Below are positions 4,218 through 47,496 of a DNA stretch of 64,000 nt, in pieces. The DNA is taken from positions 62,001 through 126,000 of IMG/VR virus record IMGVR_UViG_3300018080_000112; one strand, 5' to 3'. Below the pieces are notes generated by a model. The model was not told where the DNA came from. It made no database searches and saw only the letters and a list, made by a program, of their open reading frames with translations. This DNA is from a virus. Both the position numbers and the translations under genes were made by a program. Each line of letters starts with the position of its first letter. Positions within the stretch are counted from its first letter, which is position 1.

Positions 4218-4617
4218 CTGATCTTTTTCAGGATCACCAAAGAGGATCACCATGAAATAGGATCACGATCTGGGATTGGAGATCACCAAGGGGGATCAAG
4301 AGCGCCCAAGGGGGTCGGTACAAGCGACACCCTTTCTCTGGGGGTCCTTTTGTTGACCTATAGGTCACAGACAACGAGAAGGGGTCTGGCGAGCCTTTTA
4401 AGGCGTTTTGTGGTTTGCGAGACTTCTGGTATTCATCCCGGTCTCTTTGTGCGTTGTAGGGGTGTTTCTGTGATCCACTTTTGGCGGGTTCCTGGCTCTG
4501 ATCAGAAGGGTTAGGTCCTAACCTTGTTGTGTGGGATTGGAGCGGATTGGAGCGGAGTAGATCGGGTTGTGTGGGATTGATTAGGATCTGTTGGGATTGG
4601 AGCGGAGTGAATCGGAA
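4218..4617. repeat. 400-base non-coding gap with two short repeat families
   Basis: No convincing gene. Between about 4230 and 4300 the words GGATCACCA, GGATCACGA and AGATCACCA recur four times. Between about 4530 and 4615 GGATTGGAGCGGA occurs in three imperfect copies, with GTGTGGGATTG twice. A perfect class C palindrome lies between the two groups. The repeats could be operator sites or leftovers of duplication. Confidence 0.5.
4509..4523. promoter_or_regulatory. Class C palindrome, site 2
   Basis: Perfect GGTTAGGTCCTAACC, about 95 bases beyond the ardA stop codon. Confidence 0.6.
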
Positions 4618-8271: not shown

Positions 8272-8664
8272 TTACTTTGTGGGTATTGTTTCTGTTGGGG
8301 GTGGTAGCGGGAACATTTCTTGTTGCGAGATAGCGGGTGCAGCTTGGATGTGATTCGGGGCTTGAGACGGGATGTTTGTGGGTATTTCAGGAAGGCTCAT
8401 TTTCTGTTCTTCGGGGTTCTTTGTGTAGTGATGTTTGAGTTCTTGTCTTCTCCAGGTCATCATTTGAGGGATCAGCATGATGGAGTGTTCGACCGCTTCG
8501 ATGGGTGCGTCAAGAGCGGACGCAATTTCATCTGGTGAGAATCCTCTTGTGATATAGGGTAGAAGTTGTTCGGGGTAGAGTTCTCTTTCGATGGGTTCTC
8601 CGTCGTGAGTGAATCCATCCCATACGGCGCAGAAGGGGCATTTCTTATCTACTAAAGGGGGCAT
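8272..8664 (-). CDS. Unknown protein with CxxC and proline-rich tail
   Basis: A 130-residue protein. KKCPFCAVWDGFTHDG at residues 7-22 looks like half of a zinc knuckle. A helical segment (GFSPDEIASALDAPIEAVEHSI) resembles a helix-turn-helix, and the last 45 residues are Pro/Gln-rich and disordered. A short DNA-binding adaptor would fit, but no family is recognised. AGGAG is well placed before the ATG. The first gene after the large 31-bp repeat array, it may be driven by class B copy 2, 234 bases upstream. Confidence 0.65.
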   Translation of the reverse strand: MPPLVDKKCPFCAVWDGFTHDGEPIERELYPEQLLPYITRGFSPDEIASALDAPIEAVEHSIMLIPQMMTWRRQELKHHYTKNPEEQKMSLPEIPTNIPSQAPNHIQAAPAISQQEMFPLPPPTETIPTK

Positions 8665-8724: not shown

Positions 8725-9327
8725 CAAGGCTATTGATCTTGGTTGTAACATCCTGGTTCGAGGTTGTTGATCATTTACACTTCAAGCCGCAAGGTTGTTG
8801 ACTGAAAACGTTGATCTTCGTTCAAGGTTGTTGACTATATGTTATACCAAATCGCAAGGCTGTTTCCCCTATCTCGGGAGTAGTGCAAGGCTATTAATAG
8901 AGACACATGTTTTGTCAAAAGCGTACCGTTTTCGGGTACAAAAGTTTGCAAAGCTGTTGACCATGCGGAACTTCGCTGCAAGGCTGTTGATCGATGTTCC
9001 CGCCATAAACAAGGCTGTTTCCTTCTCGTAGCACCAAGCGAAGGCTGTTGACCGTTCGGAATGCTCTTCAAGGCTGTTGACCATTCGGAATGCTCTTCAA
9101 GGCTGTTGACCATGCGGAACTCCGCTTCAAGGCTGTTAATGATGCGGTTGTAGTTCAAGGCTACTGACTCCAATTGAGGAGCGGTTCAAGGCTTGTTGAC
9201 CGTAATCCTACCCGTGGTCAAGGCTGATGATGATGCTCTCACTTCTTTATCAAGGCTGTTTTCGTTACAGTTCCTTTCCGTCAAAGGCTGTTAACTCCGT
9301 TTGAGGGGCATTTGCAAGGCTATTGAC
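8725..9327. repeat. Array of 19 CAAGGCTGTTGAC repeats in ~31-bp register
   Basis: Copies of CAAGGCTGTTGAC or close variants start near 8725, 8759, 8790, 8823, 8855, 8886, 8949, 8979, 9010, 9040, 9069, 9098, 9128, 9156, 9187, 9219, 9251, 9282 and 9315. Steps are 28-34 bases, mean about 31, except one 63-base step that spans a class B element; that element's own CAAAAGCGTACCG begins at 8916, in register. Intervening sequences are mostly unrelated. Spacing of three helical turns puts every copy on one DNA face. Confidence 0.9.
8898..8928 (-). promoter_or_regulatory. Class B promoter-like element, copy 2
   Basis: Minus strand reads CGGTACGCTTTTGAC, then AAAACAT, then GTGTCTCTATTAAT. It is embedded in the 31-bp repeat array and replaces one repeat without breaking the register. 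Confidence 0.65.
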
Positions 9328-9850: not shown

Positions 9851-11602
9851 TTAGAACGAGAATGAGAAACCGCCGCCCTTTCTTTCAGATGCAAACACGG
9901 CGAAATTGAGCGCGTCAAGGCTGTGGGGGTCCATTCCGACCATGTTCCATCTCATTCTATAGCGCCCGGTCTCTTCTTCGACCTCGACCTTCTCACGAAC
10001 AGGACAAGCGAAGTGTGGATATGCGTGGGTTCGCATGATCGGATAGTTGTCTTTGCGACCGCCGCCGTAGGGGTGACACTCTTGTACTTGCTTGTCTGGA
10101 TCAGGCCAAACCATCTTCTTTTTGACAATCAGATTAATGGTGTAGCCAATGGATTTGTAGAGATCCAGGTACACTCGGCGTTTGGCGACTGTTTCCGGGC
10201 GAGCTTTCTTGTGCTTCTTTTTGGTCTTGCCTTCTTCCCACGAGACCATATCGTTGTATTCGTTTGAGTAGGCAAGGATCACCTTTCTGGGATAGTCGTT
10301 GGCGAAGTTCAGCGCGTCGTTACTGTGGGGCATAGCGTCCACCACACAGACCTCAACATCAAACTTTTCTAACAGTTCGCCAGTGCGTTTCCAGGGGTGA
10401 GAATCTTCGATGATCTCGAACCAAACGATCCGCCGCTTGTCGCCTTGTCTGTTTATGATAAACACGTAGTTCATGTTCATCATTTGGTCAACACCCATAT
10501 AGTTCACGCCGATATAATCGCCCCAAACAGCGAGAGGATCAACGTTGTTGTCAAGGTCTTCCTCTTCAATCGGCTTGTTTGTTTTGTCTACAAAGGGGAT
10601 GCCAAGCATATGGTTGTAGAACTCTTTCATGTCCGTGGTGTTCTCGTATTCGAACATGATTTCATCTGGCGTTGTCTTGCTACTGATCAGTTGGCTGATC
10701 TGGAATCCGGAGTTCGCATGTCCGGGGTTGTGTGCGATGTAGCGACCGCGTTGTGTGTTGACCAGTTCCGTTTTGCACTTCTTACACTGGATATAGTACT
10801 GACCTTTCTTCGGTCCCTTGGTGTGTCTCGCCATGCAATTCGGGAATTCCGTTGCCAGTATTTGTTCGCAATTGCAAGCGTGACAACGGGTGTAGAACCA
10901 CTTCTGATCCGTGTTTAGAAAGAGCTTATGAATATCGCCATTGGGATAACCAGCGGTAGAAACGTGATGTTTGTAGCGGTAGGGGACTGACGCAAGCACG
11001 CGAGCGTAGGCTTGAAAGATCTCGCTGATTTTGACAAGGCGGACCTCATCAAAGAAGAGCGCGTTCATGGGGACGGAGTCTTTGGTGGACTGACCACCCA
11101 TGTAGAGGAAATAGAGAGACGATTTCCCCACGGGGCGGAGATCTTGACGCTGTTCCTTGGAGTAGGGGCGTAGGTCGTTGCAAGATTTCATCAGGGGGAC
11201 CACGCGATCCTTGACCACGCGCCCGATACCTTTGGAGTCCGGGAAGTAGAAACCGATCTTGATCGGGTGGTCAAATCCCCACGAAGCGTGAAAGAGAGAC
11301 ATGTGGAAGGCTTTTAGCATCATGTAGATGGTTGCACCCATCTGCGCCGCCTTCATCAGCACAACGTACTCTGAGCGGTCAGAGAAGAGCGGGTACAAAT
11401 AAGCGTGACCGGCAAAAGAGAACGGGTTCTCATCGACCTCCACGCCGCTATGTTCCGCCCACAAGGGGAGTCGTCTCTTCATGTAGGCTTGCATCAGCTT
11501 TGGAGGGATCTGGCTTGCCGTCAAGACCTTCTGTGTCTGTTCTGTTGTTGGTTGTACCACCGGGCTTGCAACCGGTTGAATGAGGGGTGCAGAAGCGGAC
11601 AT
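9851..11602 (-). CDS. terL: Terminase large subunit, GpA-like
   Basis: The 583-residue DNA-packaging motor and nuclease. The ATPase half has a variant P-loop region (KAAQMGATIYMMLK, where GpA-type enzymes have a similar non-classical loop), FYFPDSKGIG and a Walker B-like LFFDEV. A four-cysteine zinc insert follows (CHACN and CKKCK). The RNase H-like nuclease half shows MGVDQMMN, CVVDAMPHSN and the C-terminal MDPHSLDALNFA, which supply the expected acidic residues. It acts at the portal to cut and pump concatemeric DNA. GGAG and AAGG precede the ATG. No obvious small terminase subunit is next to it. Confidence 0.88.
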   Translation of the reverse strand: MSASAPLIQPVASPVVQPTTEQTQKVLTASQIPPKLMQAYMKRRLPLWAEHSGVEVDENPFSFAGHAYLYPLFSDRSEYVVLMKAAQMGATIYMMLKAFHMSLFHASWGFDHPIKIGFYFPDSKGIGRVVKDRVVPLMKSCNDLRPYSKEQRQDLRPVGKSSLYFLYMGGQSTKDSVPMNALFFDEVRLVKISEIFQAYARVLASVPYRYKHHVSTAGYPNGDIHKLFLNTDQKWFYTRCHACNCEQILATEFPNCMARHTKGPKKGQYYIQCKKCKTELVNTQRGRYIAHNPGHANSGFQISQLISSKTTPDEIMFEYENTTDMKEFYNHMLGIPFVDKTNKPIEEEDLDNNVDPLAVWGDYIGVNYMGVDQMMNMNYVFIINRQGDKRRIVWFEIIEDSHPWKRTGELLEKFDVEVCVVDAMPHSNDALNFANDYPRKVILAYSNEYNDMVSWEEGKTKKKHKKARPETVAKRRVYLDLYKSIGYTINLIVKKKMVWPDPDKQVQECHPYGGGRKDNYPIMRTHAYPHFACPVREKVEVEEETGRYRMRWNMVGMDPHSLDALNFAVFASERKGGGFSFSF

Positions 11603-17812: not shown

Positions 17813-18352
17813 TTATTGATGCATCTTCGCAAGCTCTTCGTATGTTCTTTCGATCAGTTCCACGAGATAAGCCACCGCTTCCTTGAAGTAATCCTGTCCA
17901 AATATCATGGGGAGTTCTTGTGTGTCTGGTAACACATACCACGGGTGTACATGGAAACAGTAATCGGCGGGGGCTAATCGAGGGACATCAACTCTGTGCA
18001 GTCGCCGATCTGGTACAATCTCGACACTCCCGATTGGCAACATTCCGCCGTCTTCTTGCTTCGGATTTGTCCAGTACACAAGGAAAGAACTGGCGCAGTT
18101 CCCCATGTAGACTATGACTGCATTCAGTTCTTCTCCGAAGTATTGCCCCAATTTCAGTGACCCCTGGACCGCTTGTTGAAGGTAATGATCATCTGTGGAT
18201 TGACCAGCCATAGGCTCGATTTCAGGAGCCGTTGTTTCACCGTCCGCAACTACTTTGTTCCATTTTTCCTTGAACACATCTAGTTGTTCTGGTGTTAGGT
18301 CTCCTTTTACATTCAACATCCCCTTGACTGTCCCGTCCTCTTTCTTTTCCAT
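17813..18352 (-). CDS. Unknown 179-residue protein
   Basis: The N-terminal 45 residues are charged and mobile. The middle is beta-rich (LNAVIVYMGNCASSFLVYW, IGSVEIVPDRRLHRVDV) with a DYCFHVHPWYVLP stretch whose histidines could bind metal, and the C-terminus is a helix (AVAYLVELIERTYEELAK). No family is recognised. GGAGAGGAT precedes the ATG, and class B copy 3 with its repeat array lies 60 bases upstream, so this gene likely begins a transcript running toward 16 kb. Confidence 0.68.
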   Translation of the reverse strand: MEKKEDGTVKGMLNVKGDLTPEQLDVFKEKWNKVVADGETTAPEIEPMAGQSTDDHYLQQAVQGSLKLGQYFGEELNAVIVYMGNCASSFLVYWTNPKQEDGGMLPIGSVEIVPDRRLHRVDVPRLAPADYCFHVHPWYVLPDTQELPMIFGQDYFKEAVAYLVELIERTYEELAKMHQ

Positions 18353-18369: not shown

Positions 18370-18653
18370 CAAAGCTATCGAAAATTGTTCTTTACGCCAT
18401 AACCATGTTTATAGAGACACACCTTTTGTCAAAAGCGTACCGTTTCACAATAAAAAAGTTTTCAAGGTTGTTGACTAGGGGTGGTTCAAGACTGTTGACT
18501 AGTGTGACTTACAAGGTCAAGGCTATTGACCGAGTCAGAATCTAAGTTCAAGGCTGTTGATATCGGTCGGATACGGTTTCAAGGCTGTTGATATCGAGCC
18601 GCATACAGGTCAAGACTGTTAACAAAATGCGGATTGGGTTCGTAGCTGTTGAC
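18370..18653. repeat. Second 31-bp-register repeat array
   Basis: CAAGGCTGTTGAC-like copies start near 18370, 18463, 18487, 18518, 18549, 18580, 18611 and 18641. From 18487 on the steps are 31, 31, 31, 31 and 30. The first gap is 93 bases, three register steps, and contains class B copy 3, whose CAAAAGCGTACCG begins at 18430. The copy at 18463 is the only one out of phase with its neighbour (24 bases). Confidence 0.88.
18412..18442 (-). promoter_or_regulatory. Class B promoter-like element, copy 3
   Basis: Minus strand reads CGGTACGCTTTTGAC, AAAAG, GTGTGTCTCTATAAAC. A clean match, 60 bases before the start at 18352, with the repeat array immediately upstream. Confidence 0.68.
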
Positions 18654-18667
18654 CTTCTCGAAAAGAG

Positions 18668-19153
18668 TCACGGTTTCGCCATTATCTTTTTGATCTTACG
18701 CATAAGGACAGGTGTCTTCATGCGCATGGGGCGTCTCTTCCGGGCTGGTGGAAAAGGCATGTTTTTGACTACCTTGTTTGCGAATCGTTTATCCGGTAGA
18801 CCTGCGGCGGATTTGTTTGCTTCAGCAAAGAGGCGAAACAACCGCATTGTCTTCTCTTCAGAACTGACCTTGTGGTACTTTTCAATAAGAGATTTTATCT
18901 TGTCGTAGTTCTTTCCATAAACGCGCATCCCCAACAAATCAACCTTTTGGTCAATGGCAATCATCTGGTTCTGTTGTGACCGCAACAAACGGAATGCTGC
19001 AACTGACATTTTGTGTTGCTTCTTCATGTTGTCAGAGACTACTTTCACGTAATATCCGACCATTGTGACAACCAGGAAACCGATAATACTGAAAGCTGTT
19101 GTTGCCCAAAACTTCCAGGACGGACCTCGTTTTGTGGTCTCTTCATCGCTCAT
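18668..19153 (-). CDS. Membrane-anchored basic protein
   Basis: A 161-residue protein with one N-terminal transmembrane segment (about residues 14-36, WATTAFSIIGFLVVTMVGYY). A charged helical region follows, and the very basic tail (PARKRRPMRMKTPVLMRKIKKIMAKP) could bind nucleic acid or phospholipid. One arrangement would place the tail outside or inside the membrane; the flanking charges do not settle it. AAGGAGAACAAG precedes the ATG. No family is recognised; a holin or spanin cannot be argued from this alone. Confidence 0.65.
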   Translation of the reverse strand: MSDEETTKRGPSWKFWATTAFSIIGFLVVTMVGYYVKVVSDNMKKQHKMSVAAFRLLRSQQNQMIAIDQKVDLLGMRVYGKNYDKIKSLIEKYHKVSSEEKTMRLFRLFAEANKSAAGLPDKRFANKVVKNMPFPPARKRRPMRMKTPVLMRKIKKIMAKP

Positions 19154-19166
19154 CTTGTTCTCCTTT

Positions 19167-19210
19167 CAAGGCTATTAATATAATACGCATCACATTTCAA
19201 AACTGTTGAC
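19167..19210. repeat. Two CAAGGCTGTTGAC-like repeats 31 bases apart
   Basis: Variants CAAGGCTATTAAT (19167) and CAAAACTGTTGAC (19198). No class B element is nearby. Confidence 0.6.
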
Positions 19211-20954: not shown

Positions 20955-21161
20955 TTATTTTTGTTCCTTTTCCATGGTGATTCTTGCAGATCGTTTGTTC
21001 TCTCCAGGAACAACTTCGCGAATTGTGCGCTCCACTTCCTTCTCCTGGATGTAATTCAAGCCACACCCAAGCTCGATACCGACCACACTGAAAAAATCCT
21101 TCAGGTCTTCACGAGAAGAACCGTCCGGAACATCGATCTCACCGTATATTCTGACCTTCAT
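20955..21161 (-). CDS. Small unknown protein
   Basis: A 68-residue protein starting with a beta strand (MKVRIYGEIDVPDG), then an SSREDLKDFFSVVGIELGCG helix and a second strand: a ferredoxin-like half. AAAAGGAGTTGTT sets the start. First gene behind class B copy 4, divergent from nrdJ. Confidence 0.6.
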   Translation of the reverse strand: MKVRIYGEIDVPDGSSREDLKDFFSVVGIELGCGLNYIQEKEVERTIREVVPGENKRSARITMEKEQK

Positions 21162-21181: not shown

Positions 21182-21227
21182 CAAGACTGTTAACTGATGC
21201 TCGTTTCTGGGGTGCAAGGCTGTTGAA
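21182..21227. repeat. Two CAAGGCTGTTGAC-like repeats 33 bases apart
   Basis: CAAGACTGTTAAC (21182) and CAAGGCTGTTGAA (21215), between class B copy 4 and the gene starting at 21161. Confidence 0.6.
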
Positions 21228-32449: not shown

Positions 32450-33710
32450 CTTTGATCCCGGATTGTTGTGCTTCCACTAGAATCTCTTTTCCTAGCGGAA
32501 CAAGGTCTTTCGGCTCGAACCCATCTAAGGAAACAAAACCCGAACACAAAACAGAATCCAGTATCTCTTCAGGAGATTGCTCGGAAGATAGTTGTACCCG
32601 AACAGGAGTAGACGAAAAGCGATCTGTATCCTTATCAGGCGATAGTAGCTCAACATATACGGCTCCTTTCTGGTAGAAGGCATCCATGGCTCTGTTTATA
32701 GCCGACCGGAGCACCTTCACAGAGTCTGGTTGCACCAGCACAATATTACCTGATGCACGAGCCGCCATTGATTCAATTGTTGGATCTTGTATGCTGTCAA
32801 CGTATCTCAGATTCCCATCGATACCGATCCGATACTTCACAAAAACGGGCGATGTTGGTAAGTAGTAGAACTCCAGGTCAACCGCTTTTTTCGTCTCTGT
32901 ACTTGCTGCAGATTTGCTTGTTGGCGCTGTCTTAATCGACACCGTCCAGACACCGCGTTGTTGTTTGATCTCGTGGGGGTGTTGTTGCCACGGTTGTCCC
33001 GGTATCAAGACCTTTGTTCCAGATACATAGGTGATTTGTGGCATGTGTATGTGACCGGAGATCACCAGGTCAAAACCACGGACCCACTTCTTTGAGATAA
33101 TCGAGCTTTCTCGAATCACGATCCCCTCGTGATCTACAAGCTCATCCTTGGCGAGACTATCCACCGGAACATTGTGCTCATTGAGAACAGAGCCAGACAC
33201 CATTCCATGCGTCACACAGATGGTTGGTTGACCTTCTGTAAGCGCATAAGGCTTGAACCATTCTTTCTTGAACTGGTCTCGATAGGGAACGGCACACACC
33301 GAAATCTTTTGACCATCCGCCAGCCGCCAATCAATCACTTCCGGTTCATGGGCAACCTGGAAACCAGGAAGGTCTGCAAAAATCTGAAGCGCATGCTGTT
33401 CGCCAGAGCGGACCACAAAATCGTGGTTACCCGGTACGAGTAACACATTCAAGCCAGCATCTGACCACTTCCGAAACTCTGCATAAACCGCATTGAACAC
33501 ATTGATTGTCACCTTGCTCTTTGCATCAAATACGTCACCCGAGATCACTACATTCTTGATCCTGAGTTGTTCAGAGAGTTGGAGGACCCCGTCAAGGCTA
33601 TCAAGAGCCGTTTTAAGGCGCGAATTAATTCCGTTGATAAGACGACCATACCGCTTATGGTTGTGTGCGTGTATATCGCTGATAACGATAAATTCAACCG
33701 ATGTTGTCAT
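32442..33710 (-). CDS. sbcD: Mre11/SbcD-like nuclease (T4 gp47-like)
   Basis: A 422-residue metallophosphoesterase. All five phosphodiesterase motifs appear in order: SDIHAH near residues 11-16, SGDVFD near 57-62, PGNHDF near 93-98, VTHGM and SGHIHMP. It forms the end-resection complex with the Rad50-like ATPase encoded at 13970. The C-terminal third, after a Ser/Ala/Lys linker, is likely the ATPase-binding part. It is in an operon with the two tagged proteins downstream, an unusual link between recombination and possible virion genes. Confidence 0.9.
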   Translation of the reverse strand: MTTSVEFIVISDIHAHNHKRYGRLINGINSRLKTALDSLDGVLQLSEQLRIKNVVISGDVFDAKSKVTINVFNAVYAEFRKWSDAGLNVLLVPGNHDFVVRSGEQHALQIFADLPGFQVAHEPEVIDWRLADGQKISVCAVPYRDQFKKEWFKPYALTEGQPTICVTHGMVSGSVLNEHNVPVDSLAKDELVDHEGIVIRESSIISKKWVRGFDLVISGHIHMPQITYVSGTKVLIPGQPWQQHPHEIKQQRGVWTVSIKTAPTSKSAASTETKKAVDLEFYYLPTSPVFVKYRIGIDGNLRYVDSIQDPTIESMAARASGNIVLVQPDSVKVLRSAINRAMDAFYQKGAVYVELLSPDKDTDRFSSTPVRVQLSSEQSPEEILDSVLCSGFVSLDGFEPKDLVPLGKEILVEAQQSGIKDG

Positions 33711-34227
33711 GTTCGTCTCCCAGATATTTCAAGGATTCTTCTGTTACCAGATAATTCCAGCGCTTTGATGGGATCTGTTGAGAGGGGTCGTCAAGAACAA
33801 GGACCTCCGCCGGATAACCAGCATACCGACACTTCCAGTCAAGTAACTCCTTCAAAAAGAATTCAACAATCGAACCCTTGTTATAAGCGACCACTATCTT
33901 ATCCAGAGTAACCAGCGGATCATTCTTGAGAAAGAGACCCACACCGATCTGACAAATGGATTGTTTTGGGAAAGCAAGCCCGGATCGAATCAACCGAAAC
34001 AGATACACAGCGGCTCTCTCAATATCCGTACTCGGTTCATTCTCTTGTAGCTCTCGCCAGCCGTGCGAGATATCCGATTTCCGCTTTGCAAGATCTTCCG
34101 CATCTCGACCAATTTCATACCGAGACGTTCCTTTTGGATAAACCTTGACCTGTTCAACATAGGTTCTGTGCCCCACGTCAACCCCCGTTGTGCTCCTGTT
34201 CCAGCTTGCATATAATAGAACTCTCAT
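33694..34227 (-). CDS. Unknown 177-residue protein
   Basis: Starts MRVLLYASWNRSTTGVDV, chosen because AAGGAGAAACGA precedes it. A helical middle (IERAAVYLFRLIRSGLAFPKQ) recalls part of D12-class DNA adenine methylases, and an EVLVLDDPSQQIPSKRW stretch stands where a DPPY motif would be expected. There is no SAM-binding FxGxG and the catalytic motif is not intact, so a methylase is not claimed. It overlaps the SbcD-like gene by 17 bases. Class B copy 6 lies 34 bases upstream and probably drives this whole operon. Confidence 0.6.
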   Translation of the reverse strand: MRVLLYASWNRSTTGVDVGHRTYVEQVKVYPKGTSRYEIGRDAEDLAKRKSDISHGWRELQENEPSTDIERAAVYLFRLIRSGLAFPKQSICQIGVGLFLKNDPLVTLDKIVVAYNKGSIVEFFLKELLDWKCRYAGYPAEVLVLDDPSQQIPSKRWNYLVTEESLKYLGDEHDNIG

Positions 34228-34260
34228 TCGTTTCTCCTTTTGCCTCTTACCACTCCCTAC

Positions 34261-34291
34261 TAGAGACACACTTTTTGTCAAAAGCGTACCA
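34261..34291 (-). promoter_or_regulatory. Class B promoter-like element, copy 6
   Basis: Minus strand reads AGTGGTACGCTTTTGAC, AAAAA, GTGTGTCTCTAGTAGG. 34 bases before the ATG at 34227, with 31-bp-type repeats directly upstream. Confidence 0.68.
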
Positions 34292-34315: not shown

Positions 34316-34391
34316 CAAGACTGTTGACTCTTTCCGATCACTTCTTTTTCAAGGCTGTTGACTTAGAGATGGTTTGAGAGGGGCTGTTGAC
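34316..34391. repeat. CAAGGCTGTTGAC repeats behind class B copy 6
   Basis: Copies at 34316 (CAAGACTGTTGAC), 34350 (exact) and about 34379 (GAGGGGCTGTTGAC), steps 34 and 29. One more step lands at 34409 on CAAGTGTTAGG, which runs into a class C palindrome. Confidence 0.75.
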
Positions 34392-43069: not shown

Positions 43070-43258
43070 CAGTATTCCTGGTGCAAAACAAGTTCCTTTT
43101 GGGTTCCTTTGTGCTTCCTTTTGGGTTCCTTTGTGCTTCCTTTTTTCAAGGCGTCTAACCTTGAGCGTCCTATTATAGATCGACCTCCTTTAAACAGCAA
43201 GCGCTAAAATACAAAGTAAGCTGTACCCGGACCTTTAACCGGGTACAAGCCCACTTTC
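43070..43258. other. Gap with tandem repeat and hairpin
   Basis: GGGTTCCTTTGTGCTTCCTTTT occurs twice in tandem with a further partial copy (about 43088-43145), upstream of the sigma gene. A single CAAGGCGTCTAAC at 43146 resembles the 31-bp repeats. Past it, TGTACCCGG/CCGGGTACA (43222-43247) forms a 9-bp stem. Confidence 0.5.
43222..43247 (-). terminator. Hairpin after the VWA protein gene
   Basis: TGTACCCGG and CCGGGTACA pair perfectly around an 8-base loop, just beyond the stop at 43259. No long U tract follows (GCUUACUUUGU), so termination may be partial. Confidence 0.5.
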
Positions 43259-45303: not shown

Positions 45304-46566
45304 TCAATCAAAAGCGCGTTGAACCAATCCTTCCAGCGTCCCCCGCTCCTCTTGTGGAGAGCGATTGATAAAACAGAACTTGGCGGACTTCTGAGGGTTA
45401 CCCCAGATACAGAACTTTTCCGCCCAATTGATCGCATCCCGTGTTGAGAGAGGAGCGGACAACTGACCGTTGACAAACGCTTCACGAACCGCATTGATCG
45501 CCTTGATGATTGCTTCCGCTTCCCATTCTTCAATGTCGCCACCGAAACGGTTCATCAGGATCTTTTGCTCTTGTTTTGCATCCAGGTAATCGAGAATGAC
45601 GGTCATAGCGAACCGGTTGATCTGTGCGTAGTTTTGGATACGAGTCCCTTGCGAGTAGAGACCCGTATCGTCCCCCATTCCGGCGGTGTTCGCCGTAGCG
45701 ATGATGGTGTTCTCAGGATGTAAAGAGATCAGCTTTTCGCCTTCTTCCATGATAAGGAGTTGGCTGTTCTTCTCCAGCGGTCGCTGTAGAACAAAGCTCA
45801 CCTCTTCGCCAATCGTGTCCCACTCATCCAGGAGAACCACCGTGCCAGGGAGAGCCATCGCTCTCGGCAAGATACCATAACAGAACTCCATTTCACGCTT
45901 CTCGCCTTCACCCTTGACCACATAGTGACCGATCAAATCAGCCCGTGTGATAGCTGAATCGAAGTTGATACGGACAAAGTTAAGGTTGAGACGAGCACAG
46001 ATTTGTTCGATGATGCTGGTCTTTCCGCTCCCTGTTGGACCGTAGACCAAGACCTTGTCCTTCAGATGCAGACCGAGAAGCACGACCTGTGTCGCTTCCG
46101 GGTCGAACACGTAATCAGGATCAATGGGAGGAGTCAGAGGACCCGGTGTCTTGTAGCCGGTGACCATCTTGTCTCGCTTCTCCGCCTTTTTCGCCTTGGG
46201 GTTCCACAAGAAATCGAAGGTTTTCTTGACGGAGAACAGCTTTTTCTCGCGCTCCTCATAGACAAGAGAGCCGACCGAACCAGAGTTGACACCCTTGACC
46301 GGGAAACCGGGAAAACGGGTCTCGTAATCCTCCGCAGTGGTCTTGTGCTCCTTCTTTAGATGATCTGTGAGATCACGAAAAGCTTGACCACAGAGCCGAC
46401 AGATGGCTTGACCCGCGCTGTTATACTTTGCTTCCAGCCCGGAGATTTTGAGACCCTTGATCTGTAGTTCGTCAACGCTGCCTGTTGGTTCGGTTGATTC
46501 TTCCGCCGTCAACTCCAGAACAGGTTCGGTGGTGGTTTCGGTGGTAGGTTCTTCTTTTGTGGACAT
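45304..46566 (-). CDS. cobS: MoxR/CobS-like AAA+ ATPase
   Basis: About 420 residues from MSTKEEPTTETTTEP; AAGGAG nine bases before this ATG. A disordered acidic N-terminus leads to a C2H2-like finger (ICRLCGQAFRDLTDHLKKEH). Walker A is GPTGSGKTS, Walker B VVLLDEWD, sensor IIATANTAG, and a conserved arginine near NRFAMTV. The family assembles ring-shaped ATPases that work on a VWA partner, here the CobT-like protein. With NrdJ needing B12, a cobalt-linked role is possible but not shown. It is behind tandem class A and class B elements. Confidence 0.85.
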   Translation of the reverse strand: MSTKEEPTTETTTEPVLELTAEESTEPTGSVDELQIKGLKISGLEAKYNSAGQAICRLCGQAFRDLTDHLKKEHKTTAEDYETRFPGFPVKGVNSGSVGSLVYEEREKKLFSVKKTFDFLWNPKAKKAEKRDKMVTGYKTPGPLTPPIDPDYVFDPEATQVVLLGLHLKDKVLVYGPTGSGKTSIIEQICARLNLNFVRINFDSAITRADLIGHYVVKGEGEKREMEFCYGILPRAMALPGTVVLLDEWDTIGEEVSFVLQRPLEKNSQLLIMEEGEKLISLHPENTIIATANTAGMGDDTGLYSQGTRIQNYAQINRFAMTVILDYLDAKQEQKILMNRFGGDIEEWEAEAIIKAINAVREAFVNGQLSAPLSTRDAINWAEKFCIWGNPQKSAKFCFINRSPQEERGTLEGLVQRAFD

Positions 46567-46645
46567 GGCAAAAACTCCTTGCTTTCGTTTAACATGCAAC
46601 CGAGAACTCTCTCAGCGCACAAATAAAATCTCTCGAAAAAAGTGA

Positions 46646-46666
46646 GGGCTAGACTTTTTTCTGACT
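46646..46666 (-). promoter_or_regulatory. Class A element, copy 6
   Basis: Reads GTCAGAAAAAAGTCTAGCCC (TAG for TTG). 80 bases before the CobS-like ATG and next to a class B element. Confidence 0.55.
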
Positions 46667-46675
46667 CACTTCTTT

Positions 46676-46705
46676 TAGGGACACACATTAGACCAAAGTG
46701 ACACC
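46676..46705 (-). promoter_or_regulatory. Class B promoter-like element, copy 8
   Basis: Minus strand has GGTGTCACTTTGGTC, TAAT, GTGTGTCCCTA; one base differs in the conserved block. In tandem with class A copy 6. Confidence 0.5.
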
Positions 46706-46739
46706 ATTTTTTCTTTCGCTTGTTGAAAAAAAGAACACA

Positions 46740-47177
46740 TTACTTGCGCCCACTGCGAGAAAACAAGCCAAGAACATCACTGAATCCTATCGTGTCTGAC
46801 TCCGCCGCTTCTTTCTCTTTCTGTTCCTGATACTCTTCCATAGCCTCTTGCATCTTCTGTATATCCTGCAAGCGCTTTTTGAGCCGGTCCAGATAATCCA
46901 TGCGATGAATCAACTCCACACGGAGCGGGTCGCCCTTTCTCATCTCCCGGATGTTCTGTCGTAGCTCATCCATGGTAATTCCGCTCCAGTGATCATCAAT
47001 CAACTGGTGCAACTTTTCATCCATTCGAATCGCAAGCGTCTCCAGATCCGCCTTGCTCATACCACAGAAACACCGATTAATCTGGTCAGAATGCAGATTG
47101 CACATATCCACAGAACGCAAACGAAACGCCGCTTGTTGCATGTAAGCCGCACCGCATATCGGACATATTGTAACCAT
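46740..47177 (-). CDS. Zinc-binding coiled-coil protein
   Basis: A 145-residue protein. CPICG at residues 5-9 and CFCG near 36 bracket an RSVDMCNLHSD stretch, giving a probable zinc ribbon. Residues 45-125 are a long charged helix, likely a coiled coil, ending in a short Ser/Gly tail. No family is recognised. A DNA-binding adaptor is one possibility. It ends before the class B element of the CobS-like gene. Confidence 0.62.
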   Translation of the reverse strand: MVTICPICGAAYMQQAAFRLRSVDMCNLHSDQINRCFCGMSKADLETLAIRMDEKLHQLIDDHWSGITMDELRQNIREMRKGDPLRVELIHRMDYLDRLKKRLQDIQKMQEAMEEYQEQKEKEAAESDTIGFSDVLGLFSRSGRK

Positions 47178-47178
47178 C

Positions 47179-47496
47179 TTACTTCTCCGTTCCCCTGAAC
47201 TTTTCCGCCTCCTGTGGTGTCTTAGGAAACCCCAACAAAAGAAGGTTCACTTCCTCCTTTGTCTCGATTGTCAACAAGTGGTCCCTTATCCGCTGCAGCA
47301 AATCAAACCAGGAAGGAAGGTCGAGCGAAGCTGTTACTGTAATGGTCAAAAGAAGGATGTTCATCACCGTGGGGTGGTCTTCTGGTTTGTGGCTCTTCAA
47401 GATATCATCCACCACAGAGAAGGAGCCAGCCAAGAGTAGCTCATCTACGGCGTCAAACACTTCGTCAATTTCGTCATCTGTGACGGTCATACTCAT
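47179..47496 (-). CDS. Small acidic helical protein
   Basis: A 105-residue acidic protein, two or three helices (DDEIDEVFDAVDELLLAG; VMNILLLTITVTASLDLPSWFDLLQRIRDHL) around a hydrophobic core. GGAG lies in the end of the upstream gene, which it overlaps by four bases (ATGA). No family is recognised. Confidence 0.6.
   Translation of the reverse strand: MSMTVTDDEIDEVFDAVDELLLAGSFSVVDDILKSHKPEDHPTVMNILLLTITVTASLDLPSWFDLLQRIRDHLLTIETKEEVNLLLLGFPKTPQEAEKFRGTEK

Follow-up and report, generated by a model that had tools for sequence, protein, structure and literature searches.

Iteron arrays at plasmid and phage origins and centromeres of the ParR/TubR type consist of direct repeats in helical register, which serve cooperative protein binding. 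Among phages, those of the Cluster A mycobacteriophages, which are temperate and encode an immunity repressor, carry dispersed stoperators in up to ~30 copies per genome (PMC9283540, PMC6550527). The L5-type repressor is a monomer with two DNA-binding domains that reads an asymmetric 13-bp site, and its effect is lost when the site is reversed (PMC9283540). In TIGR, a different type of repeat system, edge repeats alternate with loop repeats, the spacers are 9 nt and the units 36 nt long, and the associated protein has a Nop domain (PMC12045711). The DNA compared here with these systems is a 64,000-nucleotide stretch (the window), which is part of a 143,941-base virus record. Sites in the whole record are given in G000 coordinates.

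The main array occupies positions 8725..9327 of the window on the + strand and contains 19 recognizable CAAGGCTGTTGAC copies, with one additional slot held by another repeat, the class B element (8895..8930, − strand). The copies start at 8725, 8759, 8790, 8823, 8855, 8886, 8949, 8979, 9010, 9040, 9069, 9098, 9128, 9156, 9187, 9219, 9251, 9283, and 9315. The copy at 9187 is a one-base insertion variant, which explains its low score with an ungapped matrix. A preliminary description of this region had reported 19 motif copies that recur every 28–34 bases with a mean of ~31. Its coordinates, motif, and spacing hold; the measured steps have a mean of 31.05 bp (SD 1.5, range 28–34). The class B element, which had been said to fit the register, occupies the 8916 slot, and its 3′ end overlaps the motif copy at 8886. 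At lags 29–33, the main array has 14 same-sequence matches; 200 resamplings of this region by a first-order Markov model gave no more than two. The proposal that all copies lie on one DNA face holds roughly, but the main array is loose in this respect, with a resultant of 0.56 at 10.5 bp/turn that random 26–36-bp spacings reach in 0.24% of cases. By both SD and resultant it is among the loosest arrays, and others are tighter. A sub-block at 8949..9140 (+ strand) reflects recent unit duplication involving units 9040, 9069, and 9098, and unit 8949 matches 9098. Directly downstream of the main array in the direction of transcription is a 130-aa ORF (8272..8664, − strand) that contains a CPFC motif and, on visual inspection, perhaps an HTH; a family search with this ORF gave no match. 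The gene for the terminase large subunit (9851..11602, − strand; phrog_675, E 1.4e-76) is transcribed towards the main array.

The motif extends far beyond this locus. A 13-bp matrix, trained on the main array and then refined, identified 85 sites above 12.5 bits on the + strand of the whole record versus four on the − strand, and column-scrambled control matrices (reversed or complemented) found one or two sites per strand. The information content of the motif is 18.2 bits, spread roughly evenly across the 13 bp, and its 3′ end is TTGAC. Arrays of 2–19 copies are present in ~13 intergenic regions from 7 kb to 96 kb of the record (~90 kb), and none were found in the last ~45 kb. Nearly all arrays are intergenic, and five of the 85 sites fall inside predicted genes. 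In the window, a second array at 18463..18623 (+ strand; six copies with steps of 24, 31, 31, 31, and 31) lies in the gap between − strand genes at 18668-19153 and 17813-18352, immediately upstream of a class B element (18410..18450, − strand). Two copies at 19167..19210 (+ strand, step 31) fill a 71-bp gap between two − strand genes, leaving 13 and 14 nt free at the gap ends. Two further copies at 21182..21227 (+ strand, step 33) and the start codon of a − strand ORF (20955-21161) are 20 nt apart. An array of two strong copies and one weak copy at 34316..34391 (+ strand, steps 34 and 29) lies upstream of a class B element and the − strand ORF 33694-34281.

With arrays in ~13 intergenic regions, the sites cannot be a single centromere or enhancer. 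The earlier view of the main array as a single local scaffold, centromere, or enhancer is thus not supported, given the same motif arrayed over ~90 kb and no ParA or ParB homolog found. More generally, the arrays could be centromere-like sites for partition, packaging, or nucleoid organization. Centromeres typically have direct repeats in register, and the main array is near the terminase gene, but arrays occur in ~13 places, none lies within the final ~45 kb, and no ParA/ParB match was found in a record that may be incomplete, so this role is very unlikely. As for specific forms, a Par centromere was rejected because no adjacent genes were found in a search limited to the ParA and ParB types, and an iteron origin, which would be one locus beside an initiator gene and an AT-rich region, does not match the ~13 loci found here.

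The pitch is well conserved across the record. Among 60 steps, 26 are 31 bp, 13 are 32 bp, and nine are 30 bp, such that 48 fall within 30–32 bp (mean 31.07, SD 1.12). An autocorrelation peak near 31 bases, which had been proposed as support, was found genome-wide, where lag 31 is the strongest repeat lag with 31 runs, compared with 13 or fewer for any lag in 20 resamplings. Phase coherence peaks at 10.4 bp/turn because this value corresponds to 31/3. Deviations of successive steps are not anti-correlated (r = +0.32), which suggests that the pitch is set between neighboring copies rather than by a global helical lattice. The spacers of the 60 adjacent units are mostly 17–19 nt long. As the preliminary description had it, the sequences between copies are unrelated; pairwise spacer similarity follows that of shuffled spacers, and the exceptions are a few recent duplicates (e.g., 9040/9069, 8949/9098, and G000:57166/58050). 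No conserved block was found inside the 18-nt spacer. The copies are therefore old, and their spacers have drifted while the 13 bp and the unit length were kept. The spacer comparison, the steps, and the lag counts also bear out the proposal that selection acts on the 13-bp motif and the ~three-turn pitch, and that a duplicated unit is not the target. A selfish or neutral repeat expansion without function, consistent with the few recent unit duplications, is highly improbable, since neutral decay would not give spacers mostly at the random level together with a fixed motif and pitch.

The layout of a 13-nt repeat with unrelated 18-nt spacers of constant length is also reminiscent of a CRISPR- or TIGR-like guide-RNA array, and the same phage has TnpB and CRISPR-like arrays elsewhere. 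As in TIGR, the array is phage-borne and tandem, with variable spacers that total ~18 nt per unit. However, the units are scattered over ~13 gaps without a common effector, the repeat is neither palindromic nor associated with an excess fold, and spacer matches to the phage's own genome are no better than those of random 18-mers, such that this origin is extremely unlikely. TIGR-Tas was rejected given a single 13-nt repeat rather than dual alternating repeats with ~9-nt spacers, and 36-nt units were also not found here. A search for the Nop-domain Tas protein (PF01798) gave no match, with a control that matched archaea only, so a divergent Tas could be missed. CRISPR arrays, which have repeats of ~23–50 nt, cas genes, and target-matching spacers, were rejected by the short repeat and the random level of own-genome spacer matches. 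The TnpB/Cas12f1-like gene itself (G000:C1:45672-46835, minus strand; locus 45320-47230) lies outside the window. On either side of it is a CRISPR-like array of four repeats; the two arrays have a 28-nt palindromic repeat (GGAATATCCCCATGTATATGGGGAATAC), a period of 61, and near-identical right flanks.

For gene context, genes were called with a crude caller written for this analysis. Nearly all confident genes are on the − strand, opposite to the motif, so the orientation of the motif to transcription is constant and it reads RTCAACAGCCTTG in transcripts. In five gaps (G000:9005, 22713, 57851, 58994, and 81154), the array takes up the full length: no more than 32 nt remain on the start-codon side and no more than 22 nt on the other, and internal gaps do not exceed 19 nt. 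Filled from stop to start codon, these gaps have no room for a separate promoter. Arrays frequently end 11–20 nt ahead of a start codon. Such placement within transcribed gaps, together with the constant sense of the motif relative to mRNA, is compatible with an RNA-level element, of which a fixed orientation is equally expected. Under this explanation, the motif would act as GUCAACAGCCUUG in leader and intercistronic mRNA, where its partner would be a small RNA or a protein that binds RNA and its role would lie in antitermination, in control of translation or decay, or in acting as a sponge. Six arrays, folded as RNA for both strands, showed no excess over shuffles (z from −1.4 to +1.9, mostly above 0). 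Arrays that are unstructured as RNA would suit single-strand binding, and folding at the shuffled level also fits the protein binding that had been proposed initially. A pitch of 31 ± 1 nt with free spacers, however, lacks an obvious reason in unstructured RNA and equals three DNA turns, and no Rfam family matched the arrays in the loci checked. The RNA-level explanation as a whole appears unlikely, and the fixed three-turn pitch with free sequence between copies is better explained by cooperative DNA binding.

We favor the hypothesis that the arrays are asymmetric sites for a cooperative DNA-binding regulator at operon junctions, stoperator-like but arrayed, with a probability of roughly 0.47. 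The asymmetric 13-bp sites (TCAAGGCTGTTGAC) would be bound by a sequence-specific regulator, copies of which, at the ~three-helical-turn spacing, would touch their neighbors and bind cooperatively. The regulator may cover the sites where early or middle operons meet, and this coating may control transcription that enters or starts there. An even distribution of information over 13 bp is what one would expect if two recognition modules occupied neighboring major grooves.

The candidate binder, more weakly inferred than binding itself, is a 393-aa phage protein (G000:C1:55389-56570, minus strand) suggested only by its domains and position. Domain matches place an N-terminal HTH at residues 14-71, a sigma70 region 4 at 128-177, and a second HTH at the C terminus (328-383); Cys pairs are also present. 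An HTH, a sigma70 region 4, a Cys-pair segment, and another HTH in one 393-aa phage protein represent an unusual fusion. A distance of 14 nt separates the array at G000:57166, which lies in the densest array cluster, from the start of the first gene in the operon of this protein; counting against this positional argument, by a rough estimate about one third of the genes are perhaps in an operon below some array. No full-length relative of the protein was found in a comparison that left out the L5 repressor, and a single-sequence structure model, made with no alignment, had a mean pLDDT of 40 and was unusable. The words normally recognized by sigma region 4 resemble TTGACA, and the combination of this domain in the 393-aa protein with a motif that ends in TTGAC is suggestive and no more. 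The phage also encodes a 73-aa HTH protein (G000:24039-24260).

As TTGAC is a −35-like word, the sites may alternatively belong to a host regulator or to host sigma factor/RNA polymerase, as a hijack or decoy. Some phage genomes are known to carry numerous sites for a host regulator, with CtrA as an example (PMC9437464). Such a function is quite improbable for the present arrays: there is no −10 partner, no sigma70-like promoter was seen inside the main array, and TTGAC points away from the genes. Returning to a phage-encoded regulator, no match to Phage_integrase, AAA_31, or ParB_N was found in the 144-kb record, which is possibly incomplete, in a search limited to these three families. With no integrase found in this search, a role as a lysogeny repressor is unsupported. 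A more specific and rather doubtful scenario is phage-wide control, in which a directional 13-bp site at a three-turn pitch would make up nearly whole intergenic regions and the regulator, possibly of HTH-sigma4-HTH composition, would polymerize over operon junctions and gate RNA polymerase one way, with the copy number per junction setting the strength of the gate.

Some motif arrays adjoin or contain class B elements, which have 16 copies in the whole record with an invariant TGTGTCTCTA on the − strand. The − strand pattern is GG..CGCTTTTGACAAAA..TGTGTCTCTA, or roughly GTGGT..N..TTTG..AAA...TGTGTCTCTATA, and the elements lie at window positions 8898, 18412, 21308, 34261, 37794, 51163, 57284, and others. 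Class B elements are frequently 45–110 nt upstream of − strand start codons and are promoter-like, judging from position only. Six of the 16 are in array gaps, an association too weak to claim. Class C repeats (GAGGGCAAGACTTTTTTCTGACT; window positions 2491, 4200, 5595, 45220, 46652, 57394, and others) are mostly 50–64 nt upstream of − strand start codons and are likewise promoter-like by position. In addition, a perfect 13-bp palindrome, GTTAGG[AT]CCTAAC, has 28 copies in the whole record, mostly intergenic, including those at window positions 4510, 6059, 7535, 9789, 13845, 21256, 26557, 34414, 38298, 47758, 53496, 57952, and 61547. No variants were seen at its end or center positions, and its spacing of ~4.8 kb is unusually even (CV 0.45, compared with 0.95 at random; 0/5000). 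These palindromes look like a separate genome-wide site system. Other features include a tandem repeat at 43093-43144 of the window (period 22, TTCCTTTTGGGTTCCTTTGTGC, 2.4 perfect copies) and a tRNA-like Rfam match (G000:C1:17268-17377, minus strand) of ~110 nt, which is long for a tRNA.

No close relative of this phage was found, and it is considered an orphan. A phage DNA collection searched by DNA, viral contigs searched by two motif patterns and the class B pattern, viral contigs searched by TerL, RNR, the candidate regulator, DNA polymerase, and DnaB, and genome contigs searched by motif pattern all yielded no relative with the motif; the class B pattern had no match in IMG/VR. Motif-pattern matches elsewhere were rejected, being either isolated pairs or short tandem repeats that are apparently coding. 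RNR-bearing contigs (44–49% identity) were also rejected, having no match to the polymerase and terminase of this phage, and the lag-31 signal was absent at the loci read in them. A literature search for arrays of this form found nothing matching.

With ~85 directional sites at a fixed pitch, the arrays of 2–19 copies between otherwise tightly packed genes provide a natural copy-number series, suited to tests of how transcription responds to oriented proteins bound cooperatively to DNA. In comparison with known systems, the arrays resemble iterons and centromeres in having directly repeated sites in helical register. Iterons normally occupy one locus or a few beside rep or par genes, whereas the present arrays have ~13 loci, unconserved 18-bp spacers, and a three-turn pitch. 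With L5 stoperators, they share asymmetric 13-bp sites in one orientation to transcription (85 versus 4 by strand) and tens of copies genome-wide, mainly in short intergenic gaps (~13 arrays; 5/85 in genes). Unlike L5 stoperators, the sites number ~85 and most are in 31-bp register arrays, in a phage without a detected integrase or an identified homologous repressor. The arrays may thus be seen as a stoperator-like design locked in register, for which there is a concrete candidate for the binder. L5-type stoperators are the nearest known analog; the phage arrays would work like a stoperator/operator system and are not claimed to be one.
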